Positions 36,725 through 54,142 of a stretch of 64,000 nt of DNA are shown here, one piece after another. Numbering within the stretch: position 1 is the stretch's first letter; every line of letters begins with the position of its first letter. The position numbers were made by a program, and so were the translations under genes. The notes under the pieces were generated by a model. It saw nothing but the letters and a program-made list of their open reading frames with translations. It ran no database searches and had not been told where the DNA came from. The stretch comes from Desulforamulus reducens MI-1 (GTDB taxonomy: Bacteria > Bacillota > Desulfotomaculia > Desulfotomaculales > Desulfotomaculaceae), in the NCBI RefSeq assembly GCF_000016165.1, contig NC_009253.1:496001-560000 (forward strand), in the 5' to 3' direction.

Positions 36725-36810
36725 ATTTTTTTTCCAAGTTAGAAGGGAAAAGTCCTATAGAATGTCGAAGTGATAAATATCACAAATCCTATTTTTTAGG
36801 GGTGTTATAG

Positions 36811-37380
36811 ATGCTGGAAACCTGTAAACGGTGCCGCTATGGGGTGGAGATTATCCGGGGAGACTACAAATGTGAGAAGCAGGAGATTAAAATTCCCAGA
36901 GATGAGGCGTTGTATCCTTTTAGGCGGTGTGAATTGTTTAGTTTTAAAAACTGCCTAGTTAAAATTAAAAAAATACATGAAAATGCAGAAATACCGAAAA
37001 AAGCCACTTCAGAGAGTGCTGGTTTTGATTTACATACAATAGAAAGCTTTACTATTTACCCCGGGGAGCATAAATCCGTGAGGACCGGCCTGGTTTTTGA
37101 GCTGCCACCTTCCTATGCTATGCTGGTATACCCCCGCAGTGGAAACGCTAAGAAACACGGAATTACATTAAGTAATGCAGTTGGTGTGGTGGACTCTGAC
37201 TATCGGGGCGAGGTTATGGTACTGCTGTACAATACAGGGGATCACGAGGTATCCTTTCAGGTAGGGGATAGAATTGCCCAGGCGATCATTCATGCATTGC
37301 CTGATATAGAATTAATTGAGTGTGAGGAACTCAGTGATACAAAAAGAGGTAAGGGTGGCTTTGGCAGTACTGGTCTATAA
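36811..37380 (+). CDS. dut: dUTP diphosphatase with N-terminal Cys-containing extension
   Basis: Residues about 50-189 form a complete trimeric dUTPase with motifs 1-5: SAGFDLH, PRSGNAKKHGI, GVVDSDYRGE, GDRIAQAII and RGKGGFGSTGL. It hydrolyses dUTP to dUMP. The first 47 residues are extra: CKRCRYG ... YKCEK ... RRCELFSF, with four or five cysteines like a small zinc ribbon. TAGGGGTG precedes the ATG at the start of the extension. Confidence 0.9.
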   Translation: MLETCKRCRYGVEIIRGDYKCEKQEIKIPRDEALYPFRRCELFSFKNCLVKIKKIHENAEIPKKATSESAGFDLHTIESFTIYPGEHKSVRTGLVFELPPSYAMLVYPRSGNAKKHGITLSNAVGVVDSDYRGEVMVLLYNTGDHEVSFQVGDRIAQAIIHALPDIELIECEELSDTKRGKGGFGSTGL

Positions 37381-37403
37381 TTTAATTATTTTTCAAAAAA
37401 CCC

Positions 37404-37432
37404 TTGCGAAAGCTGTCAAACTATGATATATT
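37404..37432 (+). promoter_or_regulatory. sigma-A promoter of tRNA cluster B
   Basis: TTGCGA (37404-37409) and TATATT (37427-37432), 17-base spacer, 17 bases before tRNA-Phe. Confidence 0.65.
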
Positions 37433-37449
37433 TTATAAGCGTTGACAGT

Positions 37450-37525
<76 letters not shown>

Positions 37526-37542
37526 TAATTAATTTTAAAAGT

Positions 37543-37617
37543 GCGGAAGTGGCTCAGTGGTAGAGCATCGCCTTGCCAAGGCGAGGGTCGCGGGTTCGAA
37601 TCCCGTCTTCCGCTCCA
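37543..37617 (+). tRNA. tRNA-Gly (GCC), cluster B
   Basis: Same sequence as the cluster A and C copies; CCA encoded. Confidence 0.95.
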
Positions 37618-37629
37618 TGTTCCATATTT

Positions 37630-37704
37630 GGCGGCATAGCCAAGTGGTAAGGCAGAGGACTGCAAATCCTTTATTCCCCAGTTCGAATCTGGGTGCCGCC
37701 TCCA
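37630..37704 (+). tRNA. tRNA-Cys (GCA), cluster B
   Basis: Anticodon GCA, CCA encoded; 75 nt, one longer than the cluster A copy because of an extra T in the variable region. Confidence 0.93.
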
Positions 37705-37715
37705 ATAAAAAATTT

Positions 37716-37748
37716 AAGCCATCTACTAATTAGTAGGTGGCTTTTTTA
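37716..37748 (+). terminator. terminator of tRNA cluster B
   Basis: AAGCCATCTACT pairs with AGTAGGTGGCTT (one G-T pair) around AATT, followed by T4-A. Confidence 0.85.
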
Positions 37749-37750
37749 CT

Positions 37751-37861
37751 ATATCAGAAAGTATAAAAACTTTCCGACTTGCATAAGGGTAACTAAGGCT
37801 TACGCCGTCGCCTAAAGGCTCTCGTGCCCTATAGGGTATGGCGTAAGCCAAGTTTTCTTTA
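37751..37861. repeat. dispersed intergenic repeat, copy 2
   Basis: Second copy of the element at 14757. The large stem is GGCTTACGCC (37797-37806) with GGCGTAAGCC (37840-37849). The loop is longer than in copy 1 and contains an extra mini-hairpin (TGCCCTATAGGGTA). Confidence 0.75.
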
Positions 37862-37865
37862 CATG

Positions 37866-38492
37866 CTAACGTTTTTTCCGTTTAGCTGGTCTACTCTTTT
37901 GGCTGGTAATTCGAGGTTGGTTGAACACTTCTGGAAGATAAGCAGTGGGTGCAGCGGCGGTAACTGATTCGTTGATTTCCTTTATAACCTTAGAAACAAT
38001 CTTTTGGTCTACGTTATTTTCTACCATGTCTATGGTGGAATCAAAAACTGGTAGTGTAGGCTTATGTTTGGGTCTTTCTGCTTTGATGATTTTAATGGGT
38101 GTCTTTACAGGTTCTTCGGTTTGTTGGTGCTTTTCAGGTTCTGATTTTTCAGGAGGAGAATAATTAGCAAGGGTAAGACCTGAAATTTGCATGTTTAGCG
38201 ATGTGGCTTGGGCCAGGGTTTCTTCCAGTGCTAAAACCTCTTCGGGAGTGCCCCCAATACCCAGGGCCTTGATGGCATCCTCTTTCATTAATCGAACCCA
38301 TTCGGCCACAACTTCCAGACCTTCCTGCAACTCCTTAAAACTTTTTTGAATTTGTTGTCCAATGTGTTTTTCAATTTCCTCCTGGCGGATGGAGAGGTTT
38401 AATACATCATTTCTTTCTGCTCTGGTTAATGAAGATAAGGGCTTGTCCAAACCCTTAATCCTATAAACAATTTGACGATACTCTTGGAACAC
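37866..38492 (-). CDS. hypothetical protein, 208 aa
   Basis: I do not recognise this protein. Residues 1-100 are helical and charged; the middle is Pro/Glu/Lys-rich and looks disordered; the tail is very basic (SRPAKRKKR). GTG 38492 is 9 bases after AGGGGG. Its upstream region shares a 22-base motif with the SBP gene at 29720. The gap 38551-38720 shows nothing else. Confidence 0.6.
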   Translation of the reverse strand: MFQEYRQIVYRIKGLDKPLSSLTRAERNDVLNLSIRQEEIEKHIGQQIQKSFKELQEGLEVVAEWVRLMKEDAIKALGIGGTPEEVLALEETLAQATSLNMQISGLTLANYSPPEKSEPEKHQQTEEPVKTPIKIIKAERPKHKPTLPVFDSTIDMVENNVDQKIVSKVIKEINESVTAAAPTAYLPEVFNQPRITSQKSRPAKRKKR

Positions 38493-38526
38493 TGAACAAT
38501 ACCCCCTATGCTGTTTTAATAAATTA

Positions 38527-38552
38527 TTTCTCTAATGAAATGTAAAATCCTT
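38527..38552 (-). promoter_or_regulatory. conserved leader motif, copy 2
   Basis: On the minus strand TAATTGGAAGGATTTTACAT followed by TT, about 40-60 bases before GTG 38492; differs from copy 1 (31335) at one of 22 positions. Confidence 0.4.
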
Positions 38553-38726
38553 CCAATTAAATAAAAAACAGTAAATAATTCCCATAAAAAACATAGGATT
38601 TAAGTTGTGTATAACGTAAGTGAAAAGGAATCCTTCTCGAAGAAATTTAGTGAGTAATGTAAAACTAATGGCAGTAGGTGCTATTGTTTTTCTCAAAAAA
38701 TTCATTGGTTAACCATAACTTGGTTG

Positions 38727-38756
38727 TTGACTTGTCTATACTCCATATGCTATATT
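38727..38756 (+). promoter_or_regulatory. sigma-A promoter of tRNA cluster C
   Basis: TTGACT (38727-38732) and TATATT (38751-38756), 18-base spacer, 25 bases before tRNA-Gly. Confidence 0.75.
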
Positions 38757-38780
38757 ATTAATCGTCGGTAGGACATCTGT

Positions 38781-38855
38781 GCGGAAGTGGCTCAGTGGTA
38801 GAGCATCGCCTTGCCAAGGCGAGGGTCGCGGGTTCGAATCCCGTCTTCCGCTCCA
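38781..38855 (+). tRNA. tRNA-Gly (GCC), cluster C
   Basis: Third identical tRNA-Gly(GCC) gene; CCA encoded. Confidence 0.95.
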
Positions 38856-38864
38856 TTAAATTTT

Positions 38865-38941
38865 GGAGCTGTGGTGTAGTGGCCTAACATGCCTGCCTGT
38901 CACGCAGGAGAACGCGGGTTCGACTCCCGTCAGCTCCGCCA
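38865..38941 (+). tRNA. tRNA-Asp (GTC), cluster C
   Basis: Second identical tRNA-Asp(GTC) gene; CCA encoded. Confidence 0.95.
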
Positions 38942-38963
38942 ATAAGATATCAAAACAGATGTA

Positions 38964-38992
38964 TTGACAAAAACCACCCTATTTGGTATATT
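38964..38992 (+). promoter_or_regulatory. sigma-A promoter of tRNA-Leu
   Basis: TTGACA (38964-38969) and TATATT (38987-38992), 17-base spacer, 20 bases before the tRNA. Confidence 0.82.
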
Positions 38993-39012
38993 AAATAAGC
39001 TGAATAATACAT

Positions 39013-39099
39013 GCCCGGGTGGCGGAATAGGCAGACGCACAGGACTTAAAATCCTGCGGTTTCACGACCGTGCCGGTTCGACCCCGGCTCCGGGCACCA
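39013..39099 (+). tRNA. tRNA-Leu (TAA), probable attachment site
   Basis: 87-nt cloverleaf with a long variable arm, anticodon TAA and encoded CCA. An integrase gene ends 38 bases downstream and points toward it, so the tRNA 3' end is the likely att site. I could not find a second copy of the tRNA 3' end in the window. Confidence 0.95.
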
Positions 39100-39124: not shown

Positions 39125-39157
39125 AGGTCAGTGTATATCACTGGCCTTTTCTCTTTT
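39125..39157. terminator. terminator between tRNA-Leu and the integrase gene
   Basis: GGTCAGTG/CACTGGCC stem with a TATAT loop, then TTTTCTCTTTT on the plus strand. It overlaps the last codons of the integrase gene. Confidence 0.75.
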
Positions 39158-40289
39158 CGGTGCCGAATCGGTGCCCGTATATCTCTTCGAGCTTTTCGGC
39201 GATCTCATTTTGCATGCTGGGAATTAGGTGAGAGTAAACATCTAAAGTTAAACTTATGGTTTGGTGTCCCAGGCGTTCCTGTACTTTTTTAGGGTTAATA
39301 TTTTCAGCTAGAAGTAAGGTGGCGTGGAAGTGCCTTAAATCATGAAAGCGCAGGCCCGAAAGGCCAATTTTATCAACCAGAGCTTTAAAGCGATGGCTGA
39401 CGGTGCCGGGGTCGGCTGGTGTGCCATCGGGTCTTGGGAATACTAGGTCGTGGTCCTGATATAGGTGCCCAAGCTTAAACCGCTCCTCCAGCTGTTTTTT
39501 ACGATGGTCTTTTAGTAAGTTAGTTAAGAAATGAGGAATAATGATTTGTCGTCGGCTTTTCTTGGATTTTGGTTCGGTAAAAAATTTTCCCTTGTCGGGC
39601 AGCCTTTGCAAAGTATTTCGTACATAGAGAAGGTTTTTGTCAAAGTCGAGGTCTTGCCAACGTAAGCCAAGAAGTTCGCCTCTTCTCATACCGGTGAATA
39701 CTGCTGAGATGATGATTATGTGGTCGGGGTGGTCTTTGGATGCCTGGATCATCCGGTCGATATTTGATAGGTCTGGCAGCTCGATTTCTTTTTGTTTGTT
39801 CTTAGGCGCCTGTACCGCATCTGCTGGGTTCCGGTTGAGCAGTTGCCATTGGACTGCGTGGGAGAGTGCTTCTTTTAATACCCGGTGATGGTATTGAACG
39901 GTTCTATTCGATAAGGTTTGCAGTTTTTGGGAGTAGTACCGTTGCAGATGCATGGGCTGAAGCTTTTCGATAATAATGGACCCGATGGATGGTATGATGT
40001 GCTTTTCGACTATTTTGCTGTAAGAGTAGTAGGTGGTAGGTGCCAGATTTGGTTTGCCGTAGTCTTCTAGCCAGCGTAGCATATAATCACCCAAACAGGT
40101 TTTAGATGGTTCGATATACTGGCCTGTCTCATATTCGGCTATGAGGCGGGCCATTTCCTTTTCTGCTTCTTTCTTTGTACCCTTAAAACCTCTCACCATT
40201 CGCTTCCGTTTGTTGGTTATGGGGTCTTTCCCCAGGTCAATAATAATTGTCCAAGAACTCTTGTGCCGCTTTTCTAAATGGCCGGGCAT
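39138..40289 (-). CDS. tyrosine-recombinase integrase
   Basis: This 383-residue phage-type integrase has an N-terminal arm-binding AP2-like domain (SSWTIIIDLGKDP), a SAM-like core-binding domain and a catalytic domain with Arg202/203 (TGMRRGE), Lys around 241, His316/Arg319 (HDLRH), His342 (LGHQT) and Tyr352 (VYSH). All catalytic residues are present. It lies beside tRNA-Leu and defines the left end of the element. AGGAGG precedes the ATG. Confidence 0.93.
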   Translation of the reverse strand: MPGHLEKRHKSSWTIIIDLGKDPITNKRKRMVRGFKGTKKEAEKEMARLIAEYETGQYIEPSKTCLGDYMLRWLEDYGKPNLAPTTYYSYSKIVEKHIIPSIGSIIIEKLQPMHLQRYYSQKLQTLSNRTVQYHHRVLKEALSHAVQWQLLNRNPADAVQAPKNKQKEIELPDLSNIDRMIQASKDHPDHIIIISAVFTGMRRGELLGLRWQDLDFDKNLLYVRNTLQRLPDKGKFFTEPKSKKSRRQIIIPHFLTNLLKDHRKKQLEERFKLGHLYQDHDLVFPRPDGTPADPGTVSHRFKALVDKIGLSGLRFHDLRHFHATLLLAENINPKKVQERLGHQTISLTLDVYSHLIPSMQNEIAEKLEEIYGHRFGTEKRKGQ

Positions 40290-40290
40290 A

Positions 40291-40713
40291 TCATCCCTCC
40301 TGTTTTAAAAGTTTCAACCTAAACCGCAGCAGCTGCTTAGTGACATTAAAATGGTCTGCTAATTCTTCTTTTTGAATTCCTTTGTCAATCGCATGCCGTA
40401 GTGCTGTGGCTGGGATTAAGTAATTAGCGGCCCAACGCAAAGCCTGATCTTCTGACTTGCTTAGCAACAGGCGGTTAGCGTAATGAAAGTATGTTCTGGG
40501 TGTGGCATAACCGGCGGTGGTGAAGTGATGACCTAGTTCCTCTGCCAAAATGCACCGAAGGCTTCTCGGGTTTTGGGATAAGGAAACGTCCAGGCCGATG
40601 ACCGGCGGCATGCCCTCTAAACAGGTATAGACTGCCAATAGCGGAGGGGCAAACTCCCAATATTCAATTTTTATTCTTTCCTGAGCCGCAAGTTCAAATA
40701 GTCTGTCAGGCAT
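40291..40713 (-). CDS. ImmA/IrrE-type metallopeptidase
   Basis: This protein belongs to the family that cleaves phage/ICE repressors to induce excision. The zinc helix reads LAEELGHHFTT, so the first His of a classical HExxH is Glu (EELGHH), a variant I recall from phage members. It follows the repressor gene directly. ATG 40713 has GGAG 7 bases upstream; an upstream ATG at 40731 overlaps the repressor stop (TAATG) and is the alternative start. Confidence 0.78.
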   Translation of the reverse strand: MPDRLFELAAQERIKIEYWEFAPPLLAVYTCLEGMPPVIGLDVSLSQNPRSLRCILAEELGHHFTTAGYATPRTYFHYANRLLLSKSEDQALRWAANYLIPATALRHAIDKGIQKEELADHFNVTKQLLRFRLKLLKQEG

Positions 40714-40730
40714 AGATCCTCTCCGTTGCA

Positions 40731-41033
40731 TTAATGGTCTTTTTTGTATTTGCGCATTAGGTAATCGATGAAATCCTCTAGGCTGCGCTGGGCTTCTGGG
40801 GGTAACTCTTTCATAGGGTCAAACTTTTGTTGTCCAGCTAGGGCGCTGAGTTCGATGAGTTTGTCCACTGGTGTGGGATCGTCGGTGCGTCCTAGCATAT
40901 AATCTGTAGTCACCTTGAAAAAATCGGCAATTTTTTTTAGTGTTTCAAAATCCGGTTCCCTCGAACCTTGTTCATAGTTACTAACCTGGCCGCGAGTAAA
41001 ACCGAGCTGTTGGGCCAGCTGTTCTTGTGTCAA
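40731..41033 (-). CDS. XRE-family repressor, apparently shortened N-terminus
   Basis: The HTH (LTQEQLAQQLGFTRGQVSNYEQGSREPDFETLKKIADFF) is complete in helices 2-5, but the usual first helix has no start codon. The TTG used here sits just before the HTH, and the frame upstream reads LRSTLLAKHE after a TAG stop. Either translation starts at TTG 41033 or a CTG upstream, or the gene was trimmed by a deletion. The role is control of the element, divergent from the HTH gene at 41100. Confidence 0.7.
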   Translation of the reverse strand: MTQEQLAQQLGFTRGQVSNYEQGSREPDFETLKKIADFFKVTTDYMLGRTDDPTPVDKLIELSALAGQQKFDPMKELPPEAQRSLEDFIDYLMRKYKKDH

Positions 41034-41099
41034 TTCATGCTTTGCCAGCAGTGTGGAACGAAGCTAAGGTATCAGAAACCCATTCCCCTGGGGGAGCCA

Positions 41100-41288
41100 G
41101 TGATACCCATAAAGCAGTTTCCACCTGTTTTAACAGTGAAGGAAGTTGCCGAACTTTTAAGGGTTTCTCGTTCTACCGTTTATGAGCTAATTAAGCAGGG
41201 GGAGCTACCCTACTTTCAAATTGGGAATAAGAAGAGATTTCAAACTGAACAAATTCTACAGTGGGTTGCTAGAAGGGAAGAAAGATAA
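41100..41288 (+). CDS. excisionase-like helix-turn-helix protein
   Basis: The 62-residue protein is almost entirely one MerR/HTH_17-type domain (LTVKEVAELLRVSRSTVYELIKQGELPYFQIGNKKRFQTEQILQWV is its span), typical of Xis/AlpA-like regulators. GTG 41100 follows GGGGG by 5 bases. Only 66 bases separate it from the divergent repressor. Confidence 0.72.
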   Translation: MIPIKQFPPVLTVKEVAELLRVSRSTVYELIKQGELPYFQIGNKKRFQTEQILQWVARREER

Positions 41289-41300
41289 GGGGGTGGGGCT

Positions 41301-41468
41301 GTGAAAAGGGCTTTTTTTATAGGAAAAGCCGGGGAATTTGTGTTGTTTTTACGTAGTATGAACCAGTTCCTAAGAATTCGAACCAGGTGTACCCACTGGT
41401 GGGAATCGGGGCGGTCCTACGGTATGGCTCAGGTGGAACCTGATGATTTTAAAAGGGAGGCGGTTTAG
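41301..41468 (+). CDS. hypothetical phage-type protein, 55 aa
   Basis: GTG 41301 after GGGGTGGGG opens a 55-codon frame whose stop TAG directly abuts the next start (TAGGTG). It is basic, with RIRTRCTHWWESGRS in the centre. Unrecognised, but the tight packing supports it. Confidence 0.5.
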   Translation: MKRAFFIGKAGEFVLFLRSMNQFLRIRTRCTHWWESGRSYGMAQVEPDDFKREAV

Positions 41469-41741
41469 GTGTTAAAGGTAAACGTAGCGTTGGCAAATTT
41501 GCATGAGGCTTTGCAAGCGTGTGGGCTGGGTGAGGCGAAGGTGGTCATTAGCTGCCACAATCTTACACCGGGGGACAGCCAGATTAAGGCGAAGGAGCTG
41601 GCGGTCAGCGGTTTTGGGGAGCGGTTGGTGGAGGAGAACCAAGTTCACCGCTATAGTCATCGGCCCGGTGGTTTTTCCTGGCTGCAGTTGGAGGAGGAGC
41701 GGGCCAAGATCAACTTCTTTTATAACTTGAACAGTTTCTAG
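41469..41741 (+). CDS. hypothetical phage-type protein, 90 aa
   Basis: I do not recognise this protein. GTG 41469 immediately follows the previous stop, with GGGAGG 8 bases upstream. The next gene follows after 24 bases. Confidence 0.6.
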   Translation: MLKVNVALANLHEALQACGLGEAKVVISCHNLTPGDSQIKAKELAVSGFGERLVEENQVHRYSHRPGGFSWLQLEEERAKINFFYNLNSF

Positions 41742-41765
41742 TTAGTGAGTAAGGAGGTTTTTTCA

Positions 41766-42935
41766 ATGGCTGTGAAGTTTCATCGGGCACAGCGGAAGAA
41801 AGCAAAATTACGGTTGGGCATTGCGGGACCCGCTGGCAGCGGCAAGTCCTTCTCGGCTCTGCAGATGGCCTTTGGTCTGGGTGGGCCAGTGGCCATGATT
41901 GATACCGAGCGGGGGTCTGGGGAGTTGTACTGTCACCTGGGGGAATATGATGTTTGCACCCTGGAGGCACCCTTTACGCCGGAGAAGTATGTGGAGGCCA
42001 TCAAGTCAGCCGAGGCAGCGGGCTATGGGGTGATTATCATTGACAGTCTGACCCACGCCTGGGCTGGTACTGGTGGGGTGCTAGATATCCACGGCTATGC
42101 TGCGGACAAGTCCGGCAATTCTTGGACCGCCTGGCGGCAGGTGACGCCCCGGCACAATGACCTGGTGGATGCACTGCTGCAGAGCAAGTGCCATATTATT
42201 GCCACCCTGCGGTCTAAGATGGAGCATATCCAGACCACGGAAAACGGGAAAACGGTCATTAAGAAGGTGGGGCTGAACCCCATACAGCGGGACGGGATGG
42301 AGTATGAAATGACCGTCTTTTTGGAAATAGACCACTCCCACATGGCCAGTGCCAGCAAAGACCGCACCGGGTTGTTTGATGGGCAGGTGTTTAAGCCAAA
42401 CCGGGAAACGGGCCAAAAGTTATTGGCTTGGCTGGAGAGTGGTGTACCACAGGAGGCTGTTCAGGCAGGCAGTGGCTTAGGGGGTGCTGCATCGGTTGGA
42501 CATGTTTCTACTGGTGGACATGGGGAAGGTACTGCTAAGCTGGGCAGCCGGCAGGAAAGTCTGGGACTTACCACAGCCGGGGCCAATGGGGCAGCCACAA
42601 AGGGGCCAGAGCTTAACAGCACAGCAGGCAGAGAGGTTACCGGGAGCAAGACAGTGGGGCAGGGGGCTGAGGTGATTGATTTTCCACCTGCTGGACCCCT
42701 TGTGGCACAGGGGCCTGGTAGTGAGGCATGGGAAGCTCTGTATGGTGGCACTGGTAAAGAGGCAACCCAGTCCAGTCAAACTGCAGCAAGAGGCCAGGGC
42801 AAGGGCAAAGGCAAAGCCCAAGAACCGAAACCACCTGTCAGCAGCCATCAGGAAGAAGACCCCTTTTGGAGTTCCCTGGATACCCTAACACCTCCCCCGG
42901 CTAGGGCTGCTGGCGGTAAAAGGAGGCTCTTTTAG
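41766..42935 (+). CDS. Sak4-like phage AAA/RecA-type ATPase
   Basis: The 389-residue protein has a Walker A (GPAGSGKSFSALQ, about residue 20), MIDTERGSGELY, and a Walker B (YGVIIIDSLTHAW). These features define RadA/RecA-like single-strand annealing ATPases (Sak4 group) of phages, used in recombination-dependent replication. After residue 230 the tail is a Gly/Ala/Ser-rich linker ending in RAAGGKRRLF, which may bind a partner. GGAGG precedes ATG 41766. Confidence 0.75.
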   Translation: MAVKFHRAQRKKAKLRLGIAGPAGSGKSFSALQMAFGLGGPVAMIDTERGSGELYCHLGEYDVCTLEAPFTPEKYVEAIKSAEAAGYGVIIIDSLTHAWAGTGGVLDIHGYAADKSGNSWTAWRQVTPRHNDLVDALLQSKCHIIATLRSKMEHIQTTENGKTVIKKVGLNPIQRDGMEYEMTVFLEIDHSHMASASKDRTGLFDGQVFKPNRETGQKLLAWLESGVPQEAVQAGSGLGGAASVGHVSTGGHGEGTAKLGSRQESLGLTTAGANGAATKGPELNSTAGREVTGSKTVGQGAEVIDFPPAGPLVAQGPGSEAWEALYGGTGKEATQSSQTAARGQGKGKGKAQEPKPPVSSHQEEDPFWSSLDTLTPPPARAAGGKRRLF

Positions 42936-43153
42936 TGGGGTACACGGAACACAGCTTGTTTCCTAGAGAGAACCCAGAGTTGGCCGGAGTTTGTTTTCAA
43001 GGTGTTTTACAGGTGCTGGAAAAGGAACGACAACGGCGGGGTCAGGACTATCGAAATGAATTACCCACTGGCCAGAGAAAAGTGCAGGAGATTGAGGAGG
43101 CCATCGGACAGTTAAAGGTGCTGTACCGGTTGGCGGTGGAGCCTAGAAAATAA
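42935..43153 (+). CDS. hypothetical protein, 72 aa
   Basis: GTG 42935 overlaps the previous stop (TAGTG). Helical and charged, unrecognised. Probably translationally coupled to the ATPase gene. Confidence 0.6.
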   Translation: MGYTEHSLFPRENPELAGVCFQGVLQVLEKERQRRGQDYRNELPTGQRKVQEIEEAIGQLKVLYRLAVEPRK

Positions 43154-43230
43154 AGAAAGCCGCTTGGTCGGGAACTTCCCTGCCAGGCGGCACACAAAAT
43201 ATCTCAAATATTATTATGGAGGCTTGACCC

Positions 43231-43362
43231 ATGAAAATCAAGAAGCTAGGGGTACAAAATTTCCGTAATCATATAGATACTGATTTGTTGCTAGATAAGG
43301 TGAATTTTTTTATCGGCCATAACAATGCCGGGAAATCCACCATATTGGCTGCCCTGGTGTAG
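43231..43362 (+). pseudogene. 5' remnant of an SMC/RecF-like ATPase gene
   Basis: ATG 43231, 8 bases after TGGAGG, begins a 43-residue peptide with the classic N-terminus KIKKLGVQNFRNH and a Walker A (GHNNAGKST), then stops at TAG 43360. Nothing resembling the rest of the protein follows; the sequence passes straight into the end of a HEPN gene on the other strand. It is a truncated fragment. Confidence 0.75.
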
Positions 43363-43711
43363 AAATTCGCCGACAACTGAATAACCCCGCTCCCATCTGC
43401 CGGTCAGACTTCGGGTGCGGGGTGCTCAGTTTCACGTTAGAACGCAAATCAAAGACTTTGGTGATGGTTTTAGAAGCCTTTTTGCTAAGAAGGTTTGTCT
43501 TGATAAACTCCCGATTAAACAAAGAAATGACGCCGCTATGCTTGGGGGAATCTAGCTCTCTGGTGGCCAACAAGGCCCGGATGGCATAGAAGGCAGCGTA
43601 ATAATAACGGTTGATGGCACTGGCAAAGGAATCCCTTTCTAACAACAACTCTGCATCCTCAAAGGTCTTTTCGGCCTTCTCCAGCCGCCAGAGAACCAGG
43701 TCTTTAATCAT
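43310..43711 (-). pseudogene. HEPN-domain protein (toxin of MNT-HEPN pair), C-terminus replaced
   Basis: Residues 1-95 are a normal HEPN domain (AINRYYYAAFYAIRALLA ... SPKHSGVISLFNREF). The end of the domain, where family members carry the RNase-like RxxxxH motif, is missing. The frame instead continues into a foreign basic tail after LRSNVKLSTPHPK that overlaps the antisense of the ATPase remnant. Probably inactive. It overlaps the upstream antitoxin gene by four bases. Confidence 0.72.
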
Positions 43712-44040
43712 AAACGCACACCTTCTTCCTGCAGATTACGGAAGAAGAGACTCTGGCGAAAGATAGGGTAGGTAAATTCATTTTGGCTTTTTAGCACAAT
43801 GGAAATAAACACATTATATTTCAGATTGATCTCAACCTGTGTATCTAAAATAATTTCCTTTGCTAGTTCGTTCTTATTTTTAAGAACAATCAGTACATCA
43901 ATATCGGAATCCGGTGCAGCAAGGCCTTTGGCCACTGACCCAAAGAGACGCATTTCCACAATGTTATCTGGCAGCTTAAGGCGGAGTTCCTGACAAAAAG
44001 CTTCCAGGGCTTGTGTGATATTGACAGGTAATTGGTCCAT
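43708..44040 (-). CDS. MNT-family nucleotidyltransferase (antitoxin of MNT-HEPN)
   Basis: The 110-residue minimal nucleotidyltransferase has RLFGSVAKG (residues 34-39) and DSDIDVLIV with the metal aspartates 46 and 48. MntA-type proteins neutralise HEPN partners by adding AMP (family knowledge). ATG 44040 is 6 bases after GGGGGG; an upstream extension to 44097 has no ribosome site. Confidence 0.83.
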   Translation of the reverse strand: MDQLPVNITQALEAFCQELRLKLPDNIVEMRLFGSVAKGLAAPDSDIDVLIVLKNKNELAKEIILDTQVEINLKYNVFISIVLKSQNEFTYPIFRQSLFFRNLQEEGVRL

Positions 44041-44132
44041 TTGAATCCCCCCTGTGCTCCTTTCTATCATATTACCATCTTTTGTTTTTTTAGTCACTGC
44101 GGACAGAATTGCTTATAAAGAAGGGTGAAAAC

Positions 44133-44486
44133 ATGGTTTTTGATATAAAGCAACTAACCCCAAAGGAACAACTTATCCTCTCCCTCATCCCCACCGGCCA
44201 TCAGCAGGCAGCTAGCCGAGCAAGCCTTGCTAAACTAACCGGGCTGCCCGAGCGGGAAGTGAGGGAAATCATCAGCGGCCTGGTGGTGAAACATGGCCTG
44301 CCCATCGGCAGCTGCACAGAGCCCACGGTGGGCGGTTATTTCATCATCCAAGACGAAGCAGACCTGGAGGTGGCCACCCGTCACCTGCTGCCCAGAGCCA
44401 GGGCCATTATCCGCCGCACCCGGGCTTTGGAGAAGATTGCCCAGGAGAAATTCAGCCGCCAGCTTAAGCTGGTGCTGGAAGACTAA
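44133..44486 (+). CDS. winged-helix phage protein, 117 aa
   Basis: A winged-HTH-like N-terminus (LTGLPEREVREIISGLVVKHGLPIGSCTEP) is followed by a wing and a C-terminal helix rich in Arg. It starts the replication block and may be a small regulator or primosome helper; this is inference. AGAAGGGTG precedes ATG 44133. Confidence 0.65.
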   Translation: MVFDIKQLTPKEQLILSLIPTGHQQAASRASLAKLTGLPEREVREIISGLVVKHGLPIGSCTEPTVGGYFIIQDEADLEVATRHLLPRARAIIRRTRALEKIAQEKFSRQLKLVLED

Positions 44487-44499
44487 GGAGGCTCAAAGG

Positions 44500-45564
44500 G
44501 TGTCGGGTTGGATTAAGCTCTGGCGGAGAACCCTCGACCACGGGCATTTCCATATGCCCGACAGCTGCTTTAAGCTGTGGGTCTATTGCCTGCTAAAAGC
44601 AGCCCCCTTCGCCACCGGCGAGCTGGCCGCCGGGGAGCTTTATCTGAGCTATAAGGAAATTCAACAAAACCTGGGGCAGCAGGGCAAAACCATCAGTAAA
44701 AGCACCATCGCCGCTGCCCTGCGGTTTCTGCAAAATCAGGGCTACCTGGTGGTACAGGCGGCCCCACTGCAGGGTATGAAGGTGAAGGTTTGTAGTTGGC
44801 AGCGGTACCAGGCCAGGGAGGAAGGAAACTCCTCCGAGGGTGCAGGGGAGGGGGATAGCCAAAACCTTTCCACGGTACGAGCAGAATTGCTCCCTAGTAC
44901 TGCTACAGTACCAATGGAATCGCCCCCTGGTACTCCTACAGTACCAGAACCTTCCCTCACTGGTACGCTAGGAGTACCAGCAAAGGCCTCCACTGGTACT
45001 GCTACAGTACCAGCTTGGTACTCTGAGAGTACTAGCACTGGTACTCCCACAGTACCAGTAACAGCCCGCGAGGCCAGTCGGGAAGCGGCCTACGGGACGC
45101 CCAAGAATATAGGTAAGAATACTAAAGAATATGGGTATAAGAATACCCCCCAAACCACCCATAAAATAAATTTTGATAAAAGGACTACCCTCCGGGACAT
45201 TTTAGACCAGTTCCCCAGATACAGCAGCAGGCAGACGGATACCCTTCGGGACTACTGGCAGCTGGTTAGCCAGACCAGAAAGCACCGAAATATCTCACCC
45301 TCCATCGTCGCAAAACAGATGAACCAATGGGAACAGTATCCGGCGGAAATAGTCCTGGAAGCCATCACAATTCATCTAACCCGCCACCGGGATAAACGGG
45401 AGGAATACACCACCGGTATTATGAGACGGTTAGTCCAGGAACAAGAAAGGGGAGGGGGTAACCCCAAAGGAGGTAACACCAGTGGAAACCATCGAGAAAA
45501 TACTGAACAAATTATCCCCAGCCGACCCACCAGCCGCTATGCCCATCTGGTCCAGGATAGCTAG
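44500..45564 (+). CDS. phage-type replication initiator / replisome organizer
   Basis: The 354-residue protein has an N-terminal winged-helix segment (FKLWVYCLLKAAP ... TISKSTIAAALRFLQNQGYLVV) of the replisome-organizer type, then a low-complexity Thr/Pro/Val linker (repeats of GTxTVP) and a DnaD-like helical end (IVAKQMNQWEQYPAEIVLEAI). The linker DNA carries six palindromic iterons, so the gene probably contains its own origin. GTG 44500 follows AAGGAGG; the open frame before it is not translated signal. It is followed, with an 83-base overlap, by a DnaC-like loader, as in phage replication modules. Confidence 0.75.
   Translation: MSGWIKLWRRTLDHGHFHMPDSCFKLWVYCLLKAAPFATGELAAGELYLSYKEIQQNLGQQGKTISKSTIAAALRFLQNQGYLVVQAAPLQGMKVKVCSWQRYQAREEGNSSEGAGEGDSQNLSTVRAELLPSTATVPMESPPGTPTVPEPSLTGTLGVPAKASTGTATVPAWYSESTSTGTPTVPVTAREASREAAYGTPKNIGKNTKEYGYKNTPQTTHKINFDKRTTLRDILDQFPRYSSRQTDTLRDYWQLVSQTRKHRNISPSIVAKQMNQWEQYPAEIVLEAITIHLTRHRDKREEYTTGIMRRLVQEQERGGGNPKGGNTSGNHRENTEQIIPSRPTSRYAHLVQDS
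44895..45057. repeat. six 19-bp palindromic iterons (putative replication origin)
   Basis: The unit is TGGTACT-N5-AGTACCA. Copies begin at 44895, 44928, 44961, 44994, 45016 and 45039, so spacings are 33, 33, 33, 22 and 23 bases, close to whole helical turns. Four copies have the exact outer TGGTAC and GTACCA; copies 1 and 5 have one change each, on one arm. They lie within the initiator gene, as in lambda O and several Gram-positive phages. Confidence 0.75.
45101..45182. other. AT-rich tract next to the iterons (possible DNA-unwinding element)
   Basis: About 80 bases, largely A/T with repeated AAGAATA(T/C) strings, begin 43 bases after the last iteron, inside otherwise GC-rich sequence. This is the usual place for a DNA-unwinding element. 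Confidence 0.5.
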
Positions 45565-46381
45565 GGAAAGGCAGGCCGCTAAGAAACAGCAAAGTGAACA
45601 GGGAGCCACCCAGCCCCAGCCCTCTACCCTAGAGGAGCCGCAGTACCGCTGCAGCAAATGCCGGGACCTGGAATTTGTCCCTGTGGGTGACGGTGTATTT
45701 ACCTACTGCGAGTGCCGCAAGCAACGCATGCTTGAACGCCGCATCAAAAGCAGTCACATCGACCCGGCCTTTACCGGGGCCACCTTTGAAAATTACAAAC
45801 TATTACCCCACAACACCAAAATGCTGGCAATGGCCCGGAAATATGCCGCTGAGTTTGAAACCATTCGTAAAGAACGAAACAACAGCCTGGGTTTTCTGGC
45901 CCAAATGGGGGAAAGCAGCATCAAAGAAATCCGAGACCCGGTGCAGCGGGCTGCGGTGAAGGCCCAGCATAATTCCTACGGTCTGGGAAAAACCCACCTG
46001 CTCTCGGCAGTGGCCCTCACCCTACTACATAGTGGTGTCCAGGTGCTGCTGGTGAATGATGCGGATATTGTGGCGGAGCTGCGGCAGGGGCAGTTTGCCG
46101 AGGATAGCCAGCACTTTGAAAAACTCATCGGCAGCATTGAACGGGTGGAGCTTTTAATCTGGGACGATCTGGGCAAGGCCAAGACCACCGAATGGGTGCT
46201 AAACCAGTATTACCGCATCATCAACTACCGCTACCGTATGGGCCTGCCCACCTGCTTCACCAGCAACGAAGACATGGATACCCTGGCGGAAAAGATCGGT
46301 GATGCCACTGCCAGCAGGCTTTATGCCATGTGCAGGGGCAGGCTGCTGCTCTGCGAGGGGCCGGATTACCGGCTGGCTTGA
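45482..46381 (+). CDS. DnaC-like helicase loader ATPase
   Basis: The 299-residue protein has an N-terminal zinc-like motif (CSKCRDLEFV ... YCEC) and an AAA+ core with GLGKTHLL (Walker A), LLIWDDLGKAK (Walker B) and CFTSNEDM (sensor 1). The segment before the Walker A Lys is unusual: QMG is separated from GLGKTH by about 25 residues (ESSIKEIRDPVQ and on), as if a loop were inserted in the P-loop. GTG 45482 follows AAAGGAGG by 8 bases and overlaps the initiator gene. Confidence 0.82.
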   Translation: METIEKILNKLSPADPPAAMPIWSRIARERQAAKKQQSEQGATQPQPSTLEEPQYRCSKCRDLEFVPVGDGVFTYCECRKQRMLERRIKSSHIDPAFTGATFENYKLLPHNTKMLAMARKYAAEFETIRKERNNSLGFLAQMGESSIKEIRDPVQRAAVKAQHNSYGLGKTHLLSAVALTLLHSGVQVLLVNDADIVAELRQGQFAEDSQHFEKLIGSIERVELLIWDDLGKAKTTEWVLNQYYRIINYRYRMGLPTCFTSNEDMDTLAEKIGDATASRLYAMCRGRLLLCEGPDYRLA

Positions 46382-46384
46382 GAG

Positions 46385-46431
46385 GTGAGAAGTGAGAGGT
46401 TGGAGGTGAGAAGTGAAAGTGAGGGGGGGCG
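46385..46431. repeat. purine-rich direct repeat
   Basis: GAGGTGAGAAGTGA occurs twice in tandem with a shorter third copy, forming a polypurine stretch just after the loader gene. Function unknown. Confidence 0.45.
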
Positions 46432-46479
46432 GGAAGCTGGCGGATTAGGCTGGAAATGTTGTGGAGTTGGTGGTTATTC

Positions 46480-46510
46480 TGTGGATAACTTGTGGATGGA
46501 TGGTGGATAA
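46480..46510. other. three DnaA-box-like sites in 11-bp tandem
   Basis: TGTGGATAA (46480, complement of the perfect TTATCCACA box), TGTGGATGG (46491) and GGTGGATAA (46502) are spaced exactly 11 bases apart, so all face the same side of the helix. They lie in a 246-base gap with no gene, between the loader and RusA genes. Confidence 0.6.
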
Positions 46511-46627
46511 CCCTATGTAGCTTCTGATAATAGAGGCTGAGTCGCTTAACAGGTGAAAGGGGCTTCTAAAATAAAACGGGTAAAAGCGTGCTTGAATAAC
46601 ACAAAATAAGGAGAGGGGGGTCACAGT

Positions 46628-46972
46628 ATGCACTTTACCGTCCCTGGCAGACCGGTACCCAAGTATCGGCCCAGGGTGGGCAAGCATGGGAACATCTACA
46701 CACCGCAAAACTGCCGAGAGTATGAAAGGACCGTGGGGCTTTATGCCAGCAATGTTTTCCCCCAGCCCCTTACGGGACCGGTGACGTTGGGGGTTAAATT
46801 CTACTTTAGCCGACGTCCCGGTGATTTGGACAACTATGTGAAGGCCATCAGCGATGGGCTAAACGGCATTGCCTGGCAGGATGATCGACAAGTGGTGAAG
46901 CTCTTTGCCAGCCTGAAGCGGGGTAGCCCAGAGCGGGCGGAGGTGGTAGTGCAGCGGATTGGAAATGATTGA
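46628..46972 (+). CDS. RusA-family Holliday junction resolvase
   Basis: The 114-residue endonuclease cuts Holliday junctions. The RusA acid cluster GDLDNYVKAISDGLNGIAWQDDRQV is intact. Normal length. GAGAGGGGGG lies before the ATG. It supports the recombination-dependent replication suggested by the Sak4-like ATPase. Confidence 0.88.
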   Translation: MHFTVPGRPVPKYRPRVGKHGNIYTPQNCREYERTVGLYASNVFPQPLTGPVTLGVKFYFSRRPGDLDNYVKAISDGLNGIAWQDDRQVVKLFASLKRGSPERAEVVVQRIGND

Positions 46973-46997
46973 CAAAGCACAGAAGGGAGTATAAACT

Positions 46998-47330
46998 ATG
47001 CGACAAGCAGACTTTAAAGCACGGATCAAGAAAATTGAGATCGCCAATCGGACCCTGACCGATGGCTGGGCACAGGCCATCCGAGTACTGCTGGACGATA
47101 TCGAACTAACGGATGAGAATTTACTGGAGCTAAAGCAGTTTCGCCCCAACGAGCCGGTGATGGTGCAGATTAACCCAGTGCAGGTGAGCCTCTTGGATAA
47201 AGTCCCGGCTGCAGCAAAAACCGAGGATAGCCTGGATGAGCCGGAGGATGGTGGCCTCTTTCAGTTTATCGAAGGGGAACCGGAGGATTTACCGCCTGAG
47301 GCGGTGTCAAAGGAGTGGAATTTCGGTTGA
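46998..47330 (+). CDS. hypothetical phage-type protein, 110 aa
   Basis: Helical N-terminus, acidic Pro-rich C-terminus. Unrecognised. AGAAGGGAG precedes the ATG; 25 bases after rusA. Confidence 0.6.
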   Translation: MRQADFKARIKKIEIANRTLTDGWAQAIRVLLDDIELTDENLLELKQFRPNEPVMVQINPVQVSLLDKVPAAAKTEDSLDEPEDGGLFQFIEGEPEDLPPEAVSKEWNFG

Positions 47331-47599
47331 TTAAGTTAGAAGGTGACGAGGTTTGTACCTTATTTACGGCCCTGACGGTGGCGAAGAACTTCTACCAGGA
47401 GCGGGGGATGCTGGAGGAAGCCCAGAAGCACGAGGCCCTGTTTGACCTGCTGTTTCACTCCGCCTCCATTCAGGTGGAATTCGGGCCGGGGTTGACTGAA
47501 GCGGGTATGGCCAGCCTGCAGGAGATTTTACAGAGGCGCAGGCAGGGGATGGAGCGGGAAAGTAAGTTGGTTGAGTTTCCGGGGAGTAAACAACTGTAG
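47327..47599 (+). CDS. hypothetical phage-type protein, 90 aa
   Basis: Helical, unrecognised. TTG 47327 overlaps the preceding stop (TTGA) and lies 11 bases after AAAGGAG; GTG 47315 is an alternative. It ends the replication transcription unit: a terminator follows. Confidence 0.6.
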   Translation: MIKLEGDEVCTLFTALTVAKNFYQERGMLEEAQKHEALFDLLFHSASIQVEFGPGLTEAGMASLQEILQRRRQGMERESKLVEFPGSKQL

Positions 47600-51319: not shown

Positions 51320-51505
51320 ATGGAGGAACTTTTTAAACTAGCCTCGAACTACGGTTTCCCAATGGTGGTGGCGGGTTACCTGCTGCTCCGCCTGGAACCC
51401 ACTATTCGGGACTTGCAAAAAAGCATTAACCTCTTAAGCTTTATCATTGCTCGACAGAGCAATATGGACATGAAAGAGCTTAACGAACTAATCAACAACA
51501 GCTAG
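51320..51505 (+). CDS. YvrJ-family small protein
   Basis: 61 residues; NYGFPMVVAGYLLLRLEPTIRDLQKSIN is the YvrJ signature, a hydrophobic N-terminal helix then an amphipathic one, as in small holin-like or phage-regulatory peptides. It follows DUF2922, an arrangement often seen. AAGGAGG precedes the ATG. Confidence 0.8.
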   Translation: MEELFKLASNYGFPMVVAGYLLLRLEPTIRDLQKSINLLSFIIARQSNMDMKELNELINNS

Positions 51506-51517
51506 GGAGTGGGAACT

Positions 51518-51892
51518 GTGGAAGTTATTAAGAAAGCCAGAGAGGGGCAGTACCTCTCTGCTCACTTCGCAGAAACTGAATTGGCCTGCCGCTGCTGCGG
51601 TAAGTTAGTAATCCACCTTGAATTAGTCTATAAACTGGAAGACCTGCGCCGTCTGCTTGATAAGCCCGTACTGGTCAACAGCGGCTACCGCTGCCCGACC
51701 AACAACCGTGCCGTGGGTGGGGTTGTTAATTCCTTTCACTCAAAAGGAATGGCAGCAGATATTCGAGTGCCCAGAATGGCAGTAAAGGAAATTGCTCACT
51801 TAGCAGAAAAAGTGGGGTTTGGTGGAATAGGGATTTATGCTAGCCAGGTACATGTAGATGTCAGGGACTATCGGACTAGGTGGGAAGGATAG
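51518..51892 (+). CDS. peptidase M15-type D-Ala-D-Ala carboxypeptidase / endolysin
   Basis: The 124-residue enzyme has the Zn site HSKGMAADI ... VHVDVR and the PVLVNSGYRCPTNN strand of the M15A group that cuts peptidoglycan peptides. An extra CRCCGK pair lies at the N-terminus. With the YvrJ protein upstream it may form a lysis-like unit. GTG 51518 is 8 bases after AGGGAG; GTG 51509 lies in that ribosome site. Confidence 0.85.
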   Translation: MEVIKKAREGQYLSAHFAETELACRCCGKLVIHLELVYKLEDLRRLLDKPVLVNSGYRCPTNNRAVGGVVNSFHSKGMAADIRVPRMAVKEIAHLAEKVGFGGIGIYASQVHVDVRDYRTRWEG

Positions 51893-52171: not shown

Positions 52172-54142
52172 TTGAAAGCATCCGAAACCAAATTACAGGC
52201 AATTATTGAAGGCAACAAACAATACATAGTCCCTCTGTTCCAAAGAACCTATAGCTGGGAGAAAAAAGACTGGGAAATGCTCTGGAAGGATATTATGGAA
52301 CTGCTTGAGGAAGACAACCCCCGCAGTCACTTTATCGGTTCCATCGTAACCATGCCTGCGGCCTCCGTACCCGAAGGAGTACCCAAATACCTTTTAATCG
52401 ATGGTCAACAGCGTCTAACCACCATATTTATACTCTTGGCAGCACTGCGGGATAAAGCCACGCAATGTAAACAAACTCTATTAGGCGAAGAAATTAACAA
52501 CACCCTACTGGTAAATCCCTATAAAAGTGGGCTGGATCACTACAAATTACAACCGACCCAGGTAGACCGAGCATCTTTTCATAACATCATAGACGACAAT
52601 TCCATAAGCTCCGTGGATAAAATTACAGGGGCTTATCAATTTTTTGAGAGAAAGCTAAAACCTGAACACATTGATGCAGAGAAAATAAAAGATATCATTA
52701 CCGGGAAGCTATCCATTGTTAGCATCGTACTAGACCCGGATGATAACCCTTATCTGGTATTTGAAAGTCTAAACGCCAAAGGGCGCCCCCTTACACAATC
52801 GGATTTAATTCGTAACTATTTCTTCATGCGAATCCATGTCAGTGAACAAGAAAAAATATACCACCAATATTGGAAACCGATGGAGGAAGCATTGGGTGAA
52901 ACCCTTACCGAATTCATCCGGCATTATCTCATGAGAAATGGTGCCAATGTGAAACAAAGTGATGTCTATTTCTCCCTCAAAGAGATAATCAATCGGGAAG
53001 ATGCCCTCACTTACCTAAAAGTATTGTCTCGCTATGCCGGCTACTATGAAAAATTGTTAAACCCCATGAAAGAAGAAAAGCTAAACCTCCGCAAGGCCCT
53101 GCAGCGTATCAATTGCATCGAAGTCAATACCGCCTACCCGTTCCTATTAAACTGCTATGAGGACTATTTCAATCAAGTAATCAGTGCAGATGAATTTTAC
53201 GAGGTGCTGAAGACCATCGAAAATTTTGCCATCAGAAGGTTTGTCTGTAACGTACCAACAAACACATTAAATAAAATATTTCCTGCCCTTTACAATCAGG
53301 TACTAGCTAAGAAAGCCGAATCCTTTGCCAGTGGAGTAAAAGACATTTTGCAAACAAAGGGTTATCCTAAGGATGTGGAATTTACAGCTCGCCTGCAAGA
53401 TGTTAAGCTCTACGGCAGCGGTGATCGTGCCGTGAAAGCTAAATTAATTTTAGAGACCTTCGAAGAATCTTATCAGCATAAAGAACAAGTACCGCTAGAT
53501 GATTGTAGCATTGAGCATATCATGCCCCAAACCCTTACAGAGGGCTGGCAAAGCTACCTGGGTGAAGACTGGGAACTCACTCACGAGTTACTCCTGCATA
53601 CCATTGGTAACCTGACCCTAACCAAATATAATTCCGAGTTGTCTAATCTGGACTATAACAGCAAGAAGCAGCTTCTCCAGGAAAGTCACTTAGAAATCAA
53701 TAAATTCTTCCAAGATGTAGACACCTGGAAGAAAGAAGACATCAAAAAACGCTCCGAGCACCTGGCAGAGTTAGCACTGCAAATCTGGCCCTACTTTGGT
53801 GAAGCCGGAAGTGAGCCAACCAATCAAACTGGCATTACCGGTACAACCCCCACCGGGCTATGGATACTGGGGCAATACTTTACAGTGTCTTCCTGGCGGG
53901 ACGTTTTAGAGCAGACCCTAAATACCATTGCCGAGCTAGAACCGGAAAAAATGGACTTAATCATGCAACAATTCCCACGGTTTGTAGGACCCGATAAAAA
54001 CAAGTTCCGTGCCATACGTACCCTGAAAAACGGGACCTTTATAGAAGTGAATTTGTCGGCTAAAAGTATCGAGAGATTCTGTTTTCAAGCACTGCAAGCT
54101 GTGGAGTTATCGAATGACGATTGGAAAGTGGAGATAGCTTAA
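52172..54142 (+). CDS. fused GmrSD-like nuclease (DUF262 + DUF1524)
   Basis: The 656-residue protein starts with a DUF262 (GmrS/ParB-like) domain: IVPLFQRTYSW, LIDGQQRLTT (DGQQR at 77-81), VFESLNAKGRPLTQSDLIRN. A DUF1524 (GmrD) His-Me finger follows: SIEHIMPQTL (His449), HTIGNLTLTKYNSELSN. GmrSD enzymes are NTP-dependent type IV restriction nucleases against modified phage DNA. About 110 extra residues follow (LDLIMQQFPRFVG). TTG 52172 with GAAAGGGTG 10 bases upstream. It ends one base before the helicase gene. Confidence 0.85.
   Translation: MKASETKLQAIIEGNKQYIVPLFQRTYSWEKKDWEMLWKDIMELLEEDNPRSHFIGSIVTMPAASVPEGVPKYLLIDGQQRLTTIFILLAALRDKATQCKQTLLGEEINNTLLVNPYKSGLDHYKLQPTQVDRASFHNIIDDNSISSVDKITGAYQFFERKLKPEHIDAEKIKDIITGKLSIVSIVLDPDDNPYLVFESLNAKGRPLTQSDLIRNYFFMRIHVSEQEKIYHQYWKPMEEALGETLTEFIRHYLMRNGANVKQSDVYFSLKEIINREDALTYLKVLSRYAGYYEKLLNPMKEEKLNLRKALQRINCIEVNTAYPFLLNCYEDYFNQVISADEFYEVLKTIENFAIRRFVCNVPTNTLNKIFPALYNQVLAKKAESFASGVKDILQTKGYPKDVEFTARLQDVKLYGSGDRAVKAKLILETFEESYQHKEQVPLDDCSIEHIMPQTLTEGWQSYLGEDWELTHELLLHTIGNLTLTKYNSELSNLDYNSKKQLLQESHLEINKFFQDVDTWKKEDIKKRSEHLAELALQIWPYFGEAGSEPTNQTGITGTTPTGLWILGQYFTVSSWRDVLEQTLNTIAELEPEKMDLIMQQFPRFVGPDKNKFRAIRTLKNGTFIEVNLSAKSIERFCFQALQAVELSNDDWKVEIA

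Follow-up and report, generated by a model that had tools for sequence, protein, structure and literature searches.

A candidate replication origin of a small integrated element very probably lies inside the element's own initiator gene, at positions 44895-45186 of the window, by which we mean the whole 64,000-nucleotide stretch of Desulforamulus reducens MI-1 DNA that was analysed. Six copies of the palindrome TGGTACT-N5-AGTACCA are followed there by an A/T-rich tract, and the coding sequence does not account for the palindromes. The intragenic-origin layout itself is already known from phage lambda and some plasmids, and by analogy the candidate is best read as an origin of the lambda-, SPP1- or pSK41-type. 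The sequence data support this candidate well; the added value is the evidence of DNA selection over the coding frame, of varied palindromes in homologous genes, and of a two-step spacing in some members of two initiator families. No description of this origin or element was found among the literature matches listed, whose coverage lies mostly outside subscription papers. The complete array, with its six palindromes and its spacing intact, is also present in genome G005 and in a MAG contig (L020). The features of the module are as follows.

44500-45564, plus strand: initiator gene; GTG start, 354 amino acids, with winged helix, disordered linker and helical C-terminal domain
44500-44814, plus strand: winged-helix domain, presumed to bind the iterons; about residues 1-105, from pLDDT, structural neighbours and alignment A3
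44875-44878, no strand: lone GTAC half-site, 22 bp upstream of the GTAC of iteron 1
44895-44913, no strand: iteron 1, TAGTACTGCTACAGTACCA; one mismatch here, none in G005 or the MAG contig
44928-44946, no strand: iteron 2; exact
44961-44979, no strand: iteron 3; one mismatch, the identical variant in G005 and the MAG contig
44994-45012, no strand: iteron 4; exact
45016-45034, no strand: iteron 5; one mismatch, other reading frame
45039-45057, no strand: iteron 6; exact, nearest to the A/T-rich tract
45103-45186, no strand: A/T-rich tract; 30% GC, four AAGAAT repeats, presumed unwinding element
45181-45465 (approximate), plus strand: C-terminal helical domain, distantly DnaD-like by profile comparison
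45482-46381, plus strand: DnaC-like helicase loader (AAA+); phrog_50 (E 2.8e-52), IstB_IS21 and Bac_DnaA

A pattern scan recovered the six palindromes at the starts and spacings of the original prediction, with start-to-start steps of 33, 33, 33, 22 and 23 bp. The arms had been called exact; this is true of three sites, and the other three are each one mismatch off. With up to three mismatches allowed, 13 matches were found in the window (shuffle mean 2.1; 13 was reached in none of 100 shuffles), six of them packed into 163 bp. In the whole genome (3,608,104 bases), this array accounts for every one of the three exact matches and for three of the five with one mismatch. The repeats had also been said to encode GTxTVP: iterons 1-4 and 6 do give (S/G)TxxVP in one frame, but iteron 5, which is out of frame with them, encodes AWYSESTST. 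The steps fit a period of 11 bp (R = 0.98), as proposed; however, a 33-bp step also spans 11 codons, which leaves the 22- and 23-bp steps as the only ones independent of the reading frame. The idea that the copies occupy one face of the helix was not sustained, since the fit to 10.5-bp B-DNA fails (R = 0.30) and wider relatives show steps of 45, 57, 102 and 114 bp.

The A/T-rich tract with AAGAATA-type repeats behind the palindromes is real, with AAGAAT copies at 45103, 45115, 45125 and 45139 (spacings of 12, 10 and 14). The part holding these repeats (45085-45150) is identical between the window and G005, a conservation partly due to the peptide PKNIGKNT, and beyond about 45155-45160 the tract is poorly conserved, with many differences between the two.

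The array was set against synonymous shuffles, in which codons were permuted among synonymous positions, leaving protein and codon usage unchanged. The gene contains 10 gapped palindromes with arms of 6 and a gap of 5 or 7 (shuffle mean 0.95, maximum 6) and five by a 21-bp palindrome test (shuffle mean 0.39, maximum 2); neither count was reached in any of 1,000 shuffles. The homologue in G005, a genome of another species, encodes a protein 87% identical to the window initiator. Between the two genes, the palindrome arms differ at one of 84 positions (0 of 34 third positions), the 5-base spacers at four of 30, and the stretch 45088-45154 at one of 67 (0 of 22 third positions), compared with 31 of 315 in the N-terminal part (24 of 105 third positions) and 50 of 407 in the C-terminal part counted from 45155 (29 of 136 third positions). 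Against the pooled N- and C-terminal parts, where 53 of 241 third positions differ, one-sided Fisher tests on these non-independent sites gave p 0.0004 for the arms and p 0.006 for the tract. Among codons for the same amino acid in both genes, 3 of 50 had changed in the palindrome region and none of 22 in 45088-45154, versus 45 of 218 elsewhere.

Codon choice was further counted in nine genes that are related, three of them closely, with non-independent sites. In their 40 (G/S)TxxVP repeats, Val was encoded by GTA in 40 of 40 cases versus 43 of 143 elsewhere, and the Gly/Ser codon ended in GT in 39 of 40 versus 70 of 372 elsewhere. These counts left out L010 and L011 (near-identical to L009), L075 (from G200; the same 44,446-base contig as L020), L012, L073 and L076 (other motif), L013 (short and stop-broken) and the remote viral rows. 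The claim that the arms are not explained by the protein was thus borne out by the shuffles, by the out-of-frame copy 5 and by the unchanged third positions of the arms. Relatives that keep the peptide and lose the palindrome had been named as evidence to the contrary, and this check came out mostly in favour of the prediction. The right-hand GTAC is present in all 40 repeats of the nine genes and the left-hand one in 39, and L073 has neither the peptide nor the palindrome of the window gene but a different palindrome instead. L012 speaks for the contrary view, with some TPTVP-like peptides and a right-side GTAC but no GTAC-N7-GTAC unit.

Residues 1-117 of the initiator match PHROG families of DnaD-like helicase loaders (phrog_2514, phrog_186 and phrog_7498; E 4e-12, 6.5e-9 and 9.5e-7), the match ending at residue 117. 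Pfam returned two matches only, both far short of their cut-offs, and NCBIfam nothing at E <= 0.01, DnaD_dom / TIGR01446 included. An AlphaFold2 model built from 16 sequences (mean pLDDT 60.2, pTM 0.36) is confident for a winged helix at about residues 21-100 (pLDDT 85-94 by blocks) and less certain for a helical part at about residues 230-320. Residues 108-224, the stretch encoded by the palindromes and the A/T tract, have pLDDT below 50. A structural aligner placed the winged helix nearest to 4pql_B (Z 8.8, 95 aligned, rmsd 6.1) and 4pt7_B (Z 8.7, 87 aligned, rmsd 3.0), titled 'N-Terminal domain of DNA binding protein' and 'Structure of initiator', with 'Structure of Rep-DNA complex' at rank 20 (Z 7.8); we take these to be pSK41-type RepA. 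Because CAP and other ordinary regulators also score about Z 8, this indicates a common fold only. Foldseek found nothing at E <= 0.001, its first matches being CodY and other regulators at E 2e-3 or weaker, and a PDB sequence search with profile A3 gave weak matches, the best (E 0.0017) to a regulator.

The C-terminus of the window protein aligned with the DnaD-domain C-termini of relatives by hhalign (probability 89.6, E 1.9e-6, 42 columns). It is distinct from the TIGR01446 DnaD domain found in L005, L012 and L073, and it also occurs in the L003 and L014-L016 proteins, from genomes without an A3-type N-terminus; the initiators look mosaic. The DnaC-like gene overlaps the end of the initiator gene by 83 bases. 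The PHROG matches of the two products agree with the predicted order of a replisome-organizer-like gene and then a DnaC-like loader.

With the full protein, matches at E <= 0.001 were found in 15 of 113 genomes of the class, its own included, and in four of the 15 the match lies wholly or mainly outside the N-terminal domain. The N-terminal profile A3 matched 11 of the 113 class genomes, three of 398 genomes in a phylum sample (its own, G200 and G233) and, in the order of G233, that genome alone among 73. The genes L005-L009, L011 and L017, whose matched stretches are 44-56% identical to the window, each carry three to eight GTAC-N7-GTAC units (eight in L005, 33 bp apart), with outer bases that are often G...C in place of T...A. 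Several nearer relatives fall short of significance. In the 21-bp test, the observed number was reached by 346, 77 and 86 of 1,000 synonymous shuffles for L008, L017 and L012, respectively, and for L005 by 317 of 1,000 at 8/9 pairs and none at 7/9. With arms of 6, it was reached by 188, 164, 51 and 198 of 1,000 for L005, L017, L073 and L076, and no such palindrome was present in L009 or L011. By eye, the gene after the initiator is AAA+ loader-like in L073 and another gene in L005; in L006-L011 and L017 a RusA-type gene follows soon after, with no DnaC-like gene between.

Other palindromes occupy the equivalent place in two homologous genes. L073, from G233, has GACTCCT-N5-AGGAGTC in one exact and one imperfect copy, a pair reached by 7 of 1,000 synonymous shuffles, and the viral contig L076 has two copies of CCAGTTCCG-N3-CGGAACTTG with one mismatch each, reached by 16 of 1,000. 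L012 showed no clear replacement palindrome. The winged-helix motif reads SNST in L073, S(K/R)ST in the GTAC group and SNTK in L012; from these few rows, our guess would be that a winged-helix residue covaries with the site. Profile A3 additionally matched 21 remote viral loci (23-44% identity in the best segment). Leaving L076 aside, all 13 distinct genes there lack a 21-bp palindrome with at least 8/9 pairs, and the palindrome pattern is therefore a trait of the nearer family; this test omitted the viral duplicates L078, L084, L086-L089 and L093, and also L010, L011, L013, L020 and L075. No relative was found of the full initiator protein in IMG/VR (by peptide patterns) or phage records, of the L005 N-terminal domain in phages or plasmids, or of L073 in IMG/VR. 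As these searches were empty save for the remote loci, no close relative was found in sequenced phage. Paired GGTAC-N7-GTACC motifs occur in 52 stretches of viral contigs, where no ORF matches A3 at E <= 1e-3, and do not count in favour of this system. Such units overlap at 11-bp steps in L023, L053, L055, L066, L069 and L072, viral contigs without an A3-type initiator.

We propose that winged-helix dimers of the gene's own product would bind the six 19-bp palindromes, and that the resulting nucleoprotein array might strain and open the adjoining A/T-rich tract from 45103 onwards. The distantly DnaD-like C-terminal domain and the DnaC-like product of the next gene would then recruit the host replicative helicase. 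The protein stretch encoded by the origin would be a flexible linker of nearly irrelevant sequence and, since the sequence of such a linker hardly matters, selection on the DNA can dominate there. Indirect evidence for this dominance comes from codon usage, from the pattern of substitutions, from the broken frame and from the predicted disorder. An origin inside the gene of its binder would join specificity and site in one transferable cassette. Moreover, homologous genes carry TGGTACT, GACTCCT and possibly also CAAGTTCCG arms in the equivalent position, which may offer natural pairs for a winged-helix recognition code.

The palindromes could also be read as operators for transcription of the replication genes, bound by the winged-helix protein or another regulator, with the origin elsewhere. 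Palindromic dimer sites and a winged-helix fold suit a repressor too, as do the regulators that head the Foldseek matches, but six sites clustered in mid-gene, with an A/T-rich repeat tract and then the gene of a helicase loader behind them, do not, and no further site with 0-1 mismatch, such as an upstream operator, exists anywhere in the window outside the array. We regard this reading as unlikely, although autoregulation by the palindromes on top of origin function would be possible. A centromere-like partition site, with palindromes bound for segregation as by TubR or AspA proteins, is the least probable of the explanations considered: the adjoining gene is a helicase loader and no ParA/TubZ-like gene was recognised among the subset of element ORFs scanned, even though centromeres are often iteron arrays and TubR and AspA chains are among the weak Foldseek matches.

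It is very unlikely that the DNA simply follows a selected GTxTVP peptide, multiplied by 11-codon tandem duplication, with the palindromes as a by-product. Five of the six copies do share one frame, a 33-bp step corresponds to 11 codons, and relatives have the peptide too, L012 among them even though it lacks the palindrome. Synonymous shuffles nevertheless fail to give the array, the valine of the repeats is invariably GTA, the linker is predicted to be disordered, and L073 differs in both peptide and palindrome; furthermore, copy 5 runs in another frame, as do the 23-bp arrays that sister elements carry (described below). Counted against the origin reading itself are L012, with its TPTVP-like peptides and no GTAC-N7-GTAC unit, the irregular spacing in wider relatives, the nearer relatives whose palindromes fall short of significance, the 13 remote viral genes without such palindromes, and the poor conservation in G005 beyond about 45155.

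Several described systems resemble the candidate origin in part. According to PMC5703833, the N-terminal winged helix of pSK41 RepA (RepA_N) binds boxes in the centre of the gene that encodes it. The middle of the protein, encoded by the origin, is a linker that can be dispensed with; both domains are DnaD-like, and pPR9 is a hybrid initiator with a swapped N-terminus. By comparison with that account, the window module is alike in its mid-gene sites and predicted-disordered linker, here read from sequence and a model, and differs in having six palindromes instead of four Rep boxes, a separate DnaC-like loader gene and a chromosomally integrated element. Membership of RepA_N by sequence was rejected, with no PF06970 match at E <= 0.1. 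For SPP1, a Firmicute phage, PMC6316719 places oriL within the initiator gene gp38, with repeats, an unwinding element and the loader gp39; SPP1 differs in its second origin, its own DnaB-type helicase and repeats described as direct repeats.

In lambda, according to PMC7466680, iterons and an A/T-rich tract lie in the middle of the O gene, the initiator acts as dimers and the loader gene follows; iteron number tracks linker length, with 4 in lambda and 6 in Stx phages. Set beside this, the window module has the same mid-gene iterons, adjoining A/T-rich tract and loader gene next to them, and differs in its half-sites. The predicted lambda O/P-type module accordingly stands as a layout of palindromes, A/T tract and DnaC-like loader, but not as sequence homology: a lambda O homologue was rejected, with no PF04492 match at E <= 0.1 and a probability of 1.2 in profile comparison with PF04492-type sister-element initiators. 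To our knowledge, lambda P is not DnaC-like.

The element around the module contains the following further genes.

39138-40289, minus strand: tyrosine integrase of the element; PF00589, E 3.6e-27
40291-41033, minus strand: ImmA-like peptidase and CI-like repressor; PF06114 and PF01381
41745-42935, plus strand: Sak4-like/AAA_24 protein; PF13479, phrog_1366 and phrog_124
44133-44486, plus strand: small gene directly upstream of the initiator; PHROG match to phrog_2113
46628-46972, plus strand: RusA-like resolvase; PF05866, E 4e-22
46998-47330, plus strand: MR(K/Q)ADF-type protein, the element-family marker; alignment A7, 29 of 113 class genomes at E <= 1e-8

The integrase adjoins a tRNA-Leu gene, no copy of whose end (at least 14 bases) was found as an attachment site in the rest of the window. 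The homologous module of G005, in which three blocks are 86-88% identical in nucleotide sequence, is found at that same tRNA cluster and has an integrase 61% identical. G068 and G100 have a serine recombinase near a gene that by eye is SmpB-like. Also by eye, the modules of G233 and G096 adjoin genes resembling spoIVA/gpsA and cas genes, with no integrase recognised in the 19 kb read. The phrog_2113 gene is present in L108-L112, L115 and L116 and absent from L113 and L114. Neither terminase (PF03354 in 9 genomes, PF03237 in 12) nor portal (PF04860 in 9, PF05133 in 12) was found on the module's contig at a distance of up to 100 kb, in searches that covered these four families and included three contigs of just 8-22 kb; the nearest matches were about 141 kb off in G000 and 151 kb in G233. 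Holin-like and endolysin-like genes lie at 51320-51892, their relation to the module being variable elsewhere. On its gene content, the host element could be either the remnant of a prophage or an integrated replicon of a satellite-like kind. D. reducens MI-1 is named among polylysogens in PMC8146710.

PICIs, as described in PMC6092414, have an integrase, a divergent repressor region, no phage structural genes, pri-rep genes, an origin immediately 3' of the initiator gene, and helper-phage induction and packaging. Compared with that description, the element has the integrase and repressor and lacks the two terminase and two portal families nearby. Identification as a PICI was considered; the layout is similar, but the candidate origin differs in lying inside the initiator gene, and no primase was found among the element ORFs scanned.

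Sister elements were sought through the MR(K/Q)ADF marker protein, for which no relative was found in phages or IMG/VR. Nine further marker stretches (L137-L145) were collected, five of which had their initiator gene analysed. Three of the five have intragenic palindromes of their own, two with a similar 33-then-23-bp spacing.

L137, 10795-11970: sister initiator with intragenic palindromes (G003)
L141, 10324-11301: sister initiator with intragenic palindromes (G025)
L140, 13012-14640: sister initiator with intragenic palindromes (G044)

The initiators of G003 and of G033 (L138) match PF04492, that of G025 resembles L137 (85% in the N-terminus), and that of G044 has no Pfam match. G003 has eight GTTGGT-N5-ACCAAC sites at steps of 33, 33, 33, 30, 23, 23 and 23 bp, and G025 has six at 33, 33, 23, 23 and 23 bp (0-1 mismatch in both); in each, the 23-bp steps run through all three frames and an A-rich tract follows. 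G044 has ten TGGTGGAAATATTCCACCA-like sites (0-2 mismatches) at 42-bp steps in one frame, then an A/T-rich stretch. Exact palindromes with arms of 6 and a gap of 5 numbered 8 in G003 (mean 1.35, maximum 5 in 300 synonymous shuffles), 4 in G025 (mean 0.52, maximum 3) and 7 in G044 (mean 1.07, maximum 4). G033 showed none by the 21-bp test, which also missed G003, and G019 (L142) had fewer than two in each of four arm/gap tests.

The window steps share their form with those of G003 and G025, the N-termini of whose initiators are without profile similarity to that of the window. The 33-then-22/23 grammar was found in the window, G005, the MAG contig, G003, G025 and, in part, L006, and was absent from L005, L007-L009, L017 and G044. 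A tentative joint reading, which we hold to be possible and somewhat doubtful, is that these elements are integrated replicons without virions that make up an undescribed family in Peptococcaceae-type Clostridia, with interchangeable initiator-plus-origin cassettes and one spacing grammar. The initiators of the cassettes would be winged-helix/DnaD-like, of the Phage_rep_O type or of other types, and many would have palindromic iterons of their own within the gene. The grammar, with steps of 33 bp at a distance from the unwinding tract and of 22-23 bp beside it, would extend across two initiator families between which no sequence relation is detectable. If this is true, the geometry of the DNA takes precedence over the reading frame, and the specificity of an initiator is readable from the gene itself. 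The frame-breaking 22/23-bp steps by the unwinding tract would give a spacing rule testable via synonymous recoding, and the comparison points to little-noticed integrated elements without detected virion genes.

Across the element family (window 39138-47599; L108-L116, L137-L142), an integrase or serine recombinase in several members, repressor/ImmA genes, a Sak4-like/RecT-like/Rad52-like protein, an SMC-like AAA protein, phrog_2113, RusA, the MR(K/Q)ADF protein and an initiator often with intragenic palindromes were observed, with no terminase or portal gene of the four families nearby where searched. At 43216-44097 of the window, 47 residues are left of the SMC-like gene that G005 has; next to this remnant are a HEPN gene (PF05168) and a nucleotidyltransferase-looking gene, on the other strand. 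Three tRNA clusters lie near one another at 35315-39099; a 78-base tRNA-Gly stretch occurs in identical form at 37541 and at 38779, and a dUTPase gene (36811-37380) lies between clusters. Judged by eye, 52172-61647 is likely a defence island, with DUF262-like, SNF2-like helicase and type III-like restriction-modification genes. Additionally, L138 contains eight dispersed copies of AAGCCACACAT in inverted pairs (10437-16411), and L137 six dispersed copies of GGAATGTCCC (2109-16033), five of them about 40 bp from GTGTGTCCC.
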